Shown: piece after piece, positions 2,028 to 3,454 of the stretch
Layout of the letters: each line of letters starts with the position of its first letter
How positions within the stretch are numbered: position 1 is the first letter of the stretch
DNA from: Chloroflexota bacterium
Lineage (GTDB): Bacteria > Chloroflexota > Anaerolineae > B4-G1
Direction: 5' to 3'
Assembly (NCBI GenBank): GCA_024232355.1
Contig: JAAEPW010000093.1
Span: forward strand, 1-24,502
DNA length: 24,502 bases
Notes under the pieces: generated by a model
Told to the model about the DNA's origin: nothing
Databases searched by the model: none
Seen by the model: only the letters and a program-made list of their open reading frames with translations
Program-made: the position numbers and the translations under genes

Positions 2028-2891
2028 GTGGGTACTGTCTACACGTTAGCCCAACCGCTGATTGCTGGAACCGCGTACACGTTCGCGGCATTTGTGGGTA
2101 GTCAGGCAGACACTAACATTTTTCAGACAAGTGTCACGCTTGCGGCTGGCGATGTCAAACTATCCAAAGATGGCGCGGCATTTGCCAACCTGACGAACCT
2201 ACCTGTAGAGACAGGCACAAGCGGCATGCTCGTGGTTTCCCTGACTACCGCCGAAACTACAAGCATAACAAATTATGCCGTGGTGAAATTCACCGACGCA
2301 GCCGGGCCAGAGTGGCAAGACGTGGTGTACATCATCCCGGCAATGAGCGCCGTCACTACGCTAGACGTTACCGACATCCTGAGCGATTCAATCGCCTTCC
2401 AGGGTGCGGACATTGACGCGAGTATCTCTAGTATCGCCGCGGCAATCGCCGCCACCGGAGCCACTCCAGCGGCTGGCGATCTCCTGGACATTGTAAAATA
2501 CACCACGTACAATTGCACCATAACTGGAATGACCATCAGTGCGGGGTGGACGTGGTTTATCGTGTCAATCAAAGAGGATTTAAAGGACAGCGACGACGAC
2601 GCTCTGTTGAGGGTGAAAGTCACGAACGGCGGTGCGGCGGGGGATGGCCTGTTGAGGATCAACAAGCAAGTGCCGACCGCTTGCGATCCGGCGCTTTCCG
2701 CAGCGGATGCCTCGTTGACCATCAACCAGGGCGCGGGCACTTGTGCGATTTACATCACCGACGCGGCTACAACGGAACTGGACGCGGCGCGTTCGTTGGG
2801 TTACGATGCGAAAGAAAACGACGGAACAGATACGGCACTGCGCAGCACGGGAATGGTGAACATCAAAGCCACAGAGACGCAGGCGACGTGA
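2028..2891 (+). CDS. Beta-rich fibre-like virion protein
   Basis: This 287-residue protein starts at GTG 2028, three bases after the preceding stop. An N-terminal beta domain (about 30-105) contains [20 protein letters not shown], a pattern often seen in phage tail/fibre proteins. A short Ala/Ile-rich helical stretch (about 125-145) follows. A C-terminal beta sandwich (about 155-262) carries [15 protein letters not shown] and [11 protein letters not shown], similar in style to upper-fibre or baseplate-type BppU-like domains. It has no enzymatic motif. Its last codons (ending TETQAT) lie in the first copy of a 21-bp direct repeat, and its TGA overlaps the start of the exonuclease gene. A fibre role is inferred from fold-like patterns. 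Confidence 0.65.
2871..2891 (+). repeat. 21-bp direct repeat, copy 1 (left of exonuclease)
   Basis: This copy is base-for-base identical to 3434-3454. It begins ACAGAGACGC and ends GGCGACGTGA. It encodes the ETQAT C-terminus of the upstream gene, and its final GTGA includes the upstream stop. The bases just outside differ between the copies (C versus G on the left, T versus C on the right), so the identity is exactly 21 bp. Confidence 0.95.
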
Positions 2892-3454
2892 TGAAAAAAG
2901 TATTTTTTGACACAGAGTTCACTGGACTACACCAAGGGACAACGCTCGTAAGCATAGGATGTGTAACGGATAATGGCAGGGAATTTTATGCCGAGTTTAC
3001 CGACTACGACACCATGCAAATCGATAACTGGCTACTGAATAATGTTATCGGCAATCTATGCTTGCCTGATTTGAGCGATGGCGAAGAAGCATCCGCGAAC
3101 TATGATGAATATCCGCAATCGGTAACAGTCAAAGGGGGCAAGGGCGCGGTAGTCAGGGAGTTAACTCGCTGGCTTGTCGGGCTGGGCCGCGTCGAAATGT
3201 GGTCGGATACGCTGGCATATGACTGGGTTTTGTTTTGTCAATTATTCGGGCACGCCTTCAACATTCCCGAAAACGTCTATTATATCCCATTTGACATTGC
3301 TACGCTATTTAAAGCGAAAGGGATTGACCCAGACGTGGCACGGGAGGAGTTCGCGGGATTGGAAGCGGATAACCAAAAGCATAACGCGCTATGGGACGCG
3401 AAAGTGATAAAAGCATGCTTTGAGAAGCTAACGACAGAGACGCAGGCGACGTGA
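2891..3454 (+). CDS. DEDDh-family 3'-5' exonuclease (RNase T/Rv2179c-like)
   Basis: This 187-residue protein starts at ATG 2891, which shares a base with the preceding TGA. It has the three exonuclease motifs in order. Exo I is FFDTEF, with D7 and E9. Exo II is LAYDW, with D111. Exo III is HNALWDA, with H164 and D169, the H-x4-D spacing of the DEDDh class. These residues bind two metal ions and remove nucleotides from the 3' end of RNA or DNA. Overall layout and length resemble the Rv2179c-like (DUF5051) exoribonuclease family. It sits between a fibre gene and the small terminase, an unusual place for a nucleic-acid enzyme, and the gene is bracketed by a perfect 21-bp repeat. By eye it is more AT-rich than its neighbours. 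Substrate and role are unknown; RNA turnover or counter-defence are possibilities. Confidence 0.85.
3434..3454 (+). repeat. 21-bp direct repeat, copy 2 (right end of exonuclease)
   Basis: This is identical to 2871-2891 at a distance of 563 bp. Here the repeat encodes the ETQAT C-terminus of the exonuclease, and its terminal GTGA supplies both the exonuclease stop and the GTG start of the small terminase. Confidence 0.95.

Follow-up and report, generated by a model that had tools for sequence, protein, structure and literature searches.

A phage exonuclease gene bracketed by a 21-bp direct repeat upstream of terS: probable insertion with duplication of a gene junction

Organization of the locus

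The window, i.e. the whole stretch of 24,502 bp analysed here, contains a DEDDh exonuclease gene located between a fibre-like gene and the gene of the terminase small subunit, terS (Table 1). The sequence ACAGAGACGCAGGCGACGTGA is present at both ends of the exonuclease gene with 21/21 identical bases. Just outside the copies, the left-hand bases are C and G and the right-hand bases T and C, and the identity thus ends at both edges; with one right-hand mismatch allowed, the repeat extends to 23/24. The copies are spaced 563 bp start-to-start. With up to three mismatches and on both strands, only these two matches occur in the window, and a dispersed start motif was rejected on this ground. A chance origin was likewise rejected, as none of 100 dinucleotide shuffles of the window contained a match.

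Table 1 Features of the locus
Feature	Position	Strand	Basis and remarks
Fibre-like upstream gene	2028..2891	+	ORF; own C-terminus TETQAT and stop coincide with the repeat; name taken from the original prediction
Repeat copy 1	2871..2891	+	Final 6 codons of the fibre-like gene plus its stop; includes the presumed former GTG start of terS
PF16473 / phrog_2259 DEDDh 3'-5' exonuclease, 187 aa	2891..3454	+	Pfam, PHROG, catalytic columns
Putative inserted segment, 542 bp	2892..3433	+	Exonuclease frame lacking its own stop codon
Repeat copy 2	3434..3454	+	Exonuclease C-terminus TETQAT and stop; GTGA overlap with the start of terS
Terminase small subunit (PF03592), GTG start	3451..4047	+	Pfam 98 bits; phrog_51
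Terminase large subunit (context)	3914..5392	+	phrog_979 E 1.1e-41

The upstream ORF stops with TGA, and the final base of copy 1 is the A of the exonuclease ATG (2891-2893), with which a GTG at 2888-2890, the former terS start, is in frame. At the other end, the stop codon of the exonuclease (3452-3454) lies inside copy 2 and overlaps the GTG start of terS (3451-3453). Both the upstream protein and the exonuclease terminate with the residues TETQAT. The original prediction, which was made from the nucleotide sequence, had described the exact repeat and its spacing, the bracketed position with the GTGA overlap, the in-frame former start and the shared terminal residues, and the coordinates agree with it in all of these points. 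The GC content of the segment between the copies is 0.476 compared with 0.545 for the window; values as low occur in 2.3% of 542-bp windows, which we count in favour of an insertion. The upstream protein has no Pfam or PHROG match, and hence its designation as a fibre is without profile support. Further downstream, the predicted frame of the terminase large subunit, if read from its first TTG, shares 134 bp (3914-4047) with terS; no Pfam family was assigned to it at E 0.001.

Affiliation of the exonuclease

The exonuclease affiliates with PF16473 (Rv2179c/RNase AS-like) with 45.5 bits, above the curated cut-off of 27, and with phrog_2259 (E 2.7e-52). The solved relatives 6s0m, 4hec and 4oke were matched to it by profile. 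The residues D7, E9, D111, H164 and D169, which we take to be the DEDDh catalytic residues, are among the invariant columns in an alignment of 15 sequences. These residues and the score are shared with the Rv2179c/RNase AS family, from which the phage protein, with its putative RNA substrate, differs in carrying a C-terminal tail that probably derives from the gene junction. According to PMC10534295, which cites Abendroth 2014, the solved relative Rv2179c has 3'-5' exonuclease activity on RNA and acts on double-stranded RNA at its single-stranded 3' overhangs. The phage protein is best explained as a 3'-5' exoribonuclease-like enzyme, predicted to be made together with the late operon, and RNA trimming or turnover may, at a guess, be its likeliest role. 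An anti-defence role had also been proposed; no result bears on it and it is not supported.

Origin of the repeat

Among the matches listed, the upstream protein has two nearest full-length relatives, P0122 and P0123, whose sequences end with TETRATS and TETRA, respectively. A third relative, P0129, ends with TETQSLT, and the other 20 of the 23 listed have no such ending. The closest exonuclease among the matches listed, P0002 (85% identical), ends with YNKLVQEAAK. The ending TETQAT is confined to the exonuclease of the window, being found in 0/119 others (120 of 4836 matches were listed). Most likely, the repeat belongs to the end of the upstream gene, and the exonuclease would have gained its final six residues and its stop codon from there. 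Since the tail is traceable to the upstream gene, the event can be polarised: the exonuclease would be the newcomer and the junction the part that was duplicated.

Bracketing repeats at other exonuclease loci

A second bracketed case, L091, was found among 36 exonuclease ORFs, and the screen was therefore widened to 96 exonuclease genes, for which 80 of 246 relatives were kept. Locus L199 duplicates L196 and locus L229 duplicates L222, and both duplicates were removed. Bracketing was defined by a score of at least 15 with only two copies in the locus and was evaluated for 86 non-redundant exonuclease genes. It was observed for 6/86 exonuclease genes and 5/2042 other ORFs (Fisher p = 1.4e-6). 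Without the window, removed because it had been chosen for its repeat, the count was 5/85 (p 2.0e-5). The screen was designed after the window and L091 had been seen, and hence these p values do not represent preset tests. L091 itself is omitted from the two-copy count because a third, partial copy is present. A shuffle-based evaluation yielded 9/86 exonuclease genes and 14/998 other ORFs. Most exonuclease genes, 80/86 by the two-copy and 77/86 by the shuffle-based count, are not bracketed, nor is the gene in any of the nine named phages tested (a tenth, unannotated record, L264, was left out). Two candidates were set aside: L173, with an RBS-like repeat in four copies, and L221, with 24/29 matching bases and a score of 14.

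The repeats match at 30/30 bases in L196 and L199, 28/30 in L186, 26/28 in L213, 22/23 in L091, 21/21 in the window, 20/20 in L179 and 15/15 in L222. Copy 2 supplies the stop codon of the exonuclease in four of the seven cases (window, L222, L091 and L213), and copy 1 contains its ATG in three (L222, L213 and L196) or has the A of the ATG as its last base (window and L091). The repeats of L186 and L179 start at the stop codons or immediately behind them, and in both loci the gene retains its own start and stop; the exact geometry of the window is thus not common to all cases. An older-looking instance below the threshold is L105, where the exonuclease tail LISLSSTK resembles LIPLSNLK of the upstream gene. 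The seven bracketed sequences were scattered in a tree calculated for 87 exonucleases and required seven changes, of which well-supported branches enforce at least four; support is weak for most inner branches, and the bootstrap had not settled.

Of the five other ORFs with bracketing repeats, two were assigned by PHROG to DNA methyltransferases (L184 2721-3311 and L181 940-2439; phrog_799 and phrog_116), each between two-copy direct repeats. They fit a general footprint of cargo genes, a hint only, as the numbers are few. In L096, an ORF of 126 aa and unknown family (4771-5151), located upstream of the exonuclease at a distance of about 0.8 kb, is preceded and followed by a 52-nt near-identical repeat with three copies in the locus. 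One contig, L085, encodes two ORFs matching the exonuclease profile (1828-2487 and 5992-6585).

Occupied and empty sites

In L222, ATATGACAGCAACCA (15 bp, 15/15) lies on either side of a PF16473 exonuclease gene that separates terL from the next gene. The N-terminus MTAT of this exonuclease copies that of the next gene, and its stop codon is supplied by copy 2. The record L250 encodes a 99% identical TerL and a 95% identical next protein, and there the two genes are joined at a single repeat copy with no exonuclease between them. In BLASTN, the left flank of L222 aligned to L250 at 88.5% over 1338 bp and the right flank at 91.6% over 861 bp. The left alignment ends at base 1338 of the L250 stretch used for the comparison and the right one starts at base 1324, so that the two share exactly 15 bases of L250, without gaps. 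No exonuclease match was obtained in the 19,965 bp of the L250 record, which is possibly a fragment. Judged from these alignments, L250 and L222 constitute an exact empty and occupied pair for the exonuclease family of the window.

The terL junction was surveyed in the phage group of L222 with 26 loci fetched and 23 classified; L222 stood in for L229, and L234 and L253 (contig ends) as well as L252 (55% identical, with a frame that does not close at this place) were left out. Nine junctions were empty, 13 held other small ORFs and one the exonuclease. This junction (L230-L254) is a hot spot, and 9/13 of the small non-exonuclease ORFs overlap the terL stop as ATGA. With terL of L222 and the head gene of L179, tblastn retrieved only relatives below 60% identity in the named phages.

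The original prediction of an inserted cargo gene that leaves its neighbours unbroken is strengthened by the tail of the upstream family and by the pair L250/L222; the part that concerned an empty site of the window's own phage found no counterpart. Scans of genome contigs, a DNA pattern scan and a search of phage DNA yielded neither an empty allele nor a close relative of the window phage in the collections searched. Outside the window, a fibre-like ORF followed by a terS-profile ORF was found in 0/51 cases, with a profile that covers one terS type only. A relative of the upstream protein (P0124) and a relative of terS (P0180) both come from a contig of 15,075 bp, a hint that they may lie on one and the same contig.

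Genomic neighbourhood of the exonuclease genes

A packaging or head gene, identified with profiles, is located within 5 kb in 23/90 exonuclease loci and within 35 bp in nine, the window counted in both. The eight others of the latter (L179, L222, L205, L216, L180, L178, L098 and L118) neighbour a terminase, portal, head or scaffold gene. The location of a DEDDh exonuclease beside such genes is not new, and the idea of a unique location was rejected. In eight of the nine named phages, the exonuclease is found near genes of nucleotide metabolism (PhoH, thymidylate synthase, DNA polymerase, dihydrofolate reductase), and in the ninth, L258, near phosphoesterases. In partly syntenic phages it occupies differing places (L205 versus L178 and L180; L188 versus L184).

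Insertion and its alternatives

The exonuclease gene was very probably inserted where the fibre-like gene and terS meet, and this probably happened recently, with duplication of about 21 bp of the junction. Copy 1 would leave the upstream gene whole, and the former start of terS would share the reading frame of the exonuclease start. Copy 2 would provide the exonuclease with a stop codon and its last six residues and leave terS whole. As the two copies preserve the ends of the neighbours, the stop/start overlap would be kept on both sides. Template switching or the repair of a staggered break may make such an insertion, and selection would then favour inserts that spare both neighbours. By analogy, the window's copy may have arisen as in the pair L222/L250. 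We infer illegitimate recombination rather than the action of a transposase or site-specific integrase. The recurrence of bracketing at unrelated exonuclease loci would also suit a dedicated mobile element or transposase that places the gene and leaves the repeats as target-site duplications. The duplication length, however, varies from 15 to 30 bp across the cases and is not fixed as for an insertion sequence or transposon, the window insert consists of the reading frame alone without inverted repeats at its ends (none at ≥16 nt and none at ≥8 nt), and no transposase or integrase was detected among the 10 window proteins scanned. Together these observations argue for illegitimate recombination, and we consider a dedicated element quite improbable.

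Phage modules are known to exchange, and the window may have received the gene by homologous exchange with a phage already having the order upstream tail, exonuclease and terS, so that the repeat would be older than the gene's arrival. The exonuclease indeed directly precedes terS in L178 and L180 and lies one gene before terS in L101, but these three loci are without a bracketing repeat (best scores 7, 7 and 6), and the TETQAT ending is absent from the other exonucleases listed. Such an exchange, which we regard as unlikely, would moreover merely shift the junction duplication to an earlier phage. We find it barely credible that the start regions of the two genes are simply alike, by chance or for translation initiation. 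L173 is such a case, and repeats associated with translation starts are known from cluster K mycobacteriophages, for which PMC3203893 describes 13-bp motifs in 11-19 copies. The repeat of the window resembles these in its closeness to a translation start; yet it occurs only twice, is sited in the coding end of the upstream gene, comprising its final codons and stop, and did not recur in the shuffles.

Implications

A moron is a single cargo gene inserted between phage genes. Similar to morons, the exonuclease of the window is one gene placed between two others and has a lower GC content, and in the case of L222 the relative L250 shows the corresponding site without the gene. In contrast to morons, it overlaps both neighbours, leaving no intergenic promoter or terminator, and the duplicated junction provides the inserted frame with its stop (window, L222, L091 and L213) and in some cases also with its start (L222, L213 and L196). 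On the best reading, the exonuclease is a recurrent single-gene cargo, presumably put into gene junctions by illegitimate recombination that duplicates the junction. More speculatively, and with considerable doubt on our part, this may be a recurrent route in phages, in which 15-30 duplicated bp supply the missing stop or start; the exonuclease family would be unusually frequent among such inserts and its activity may trim ends during the event. If so, the insert would be translated at once and both neighbours would remain whole.

The entry of single genes into packed phage genomes is usually ascribed to illegitimate recombination and selection, with little trace left. No published description of a junction-duplication footprint was recognised in a literature search whose reach mostly excluded subscription papers. 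Such a footprint would be a concrete and countable trace that shows which gene is the newcomer, and would make the mechanism testable via natural empty and occupied pairs such as L250/L222.
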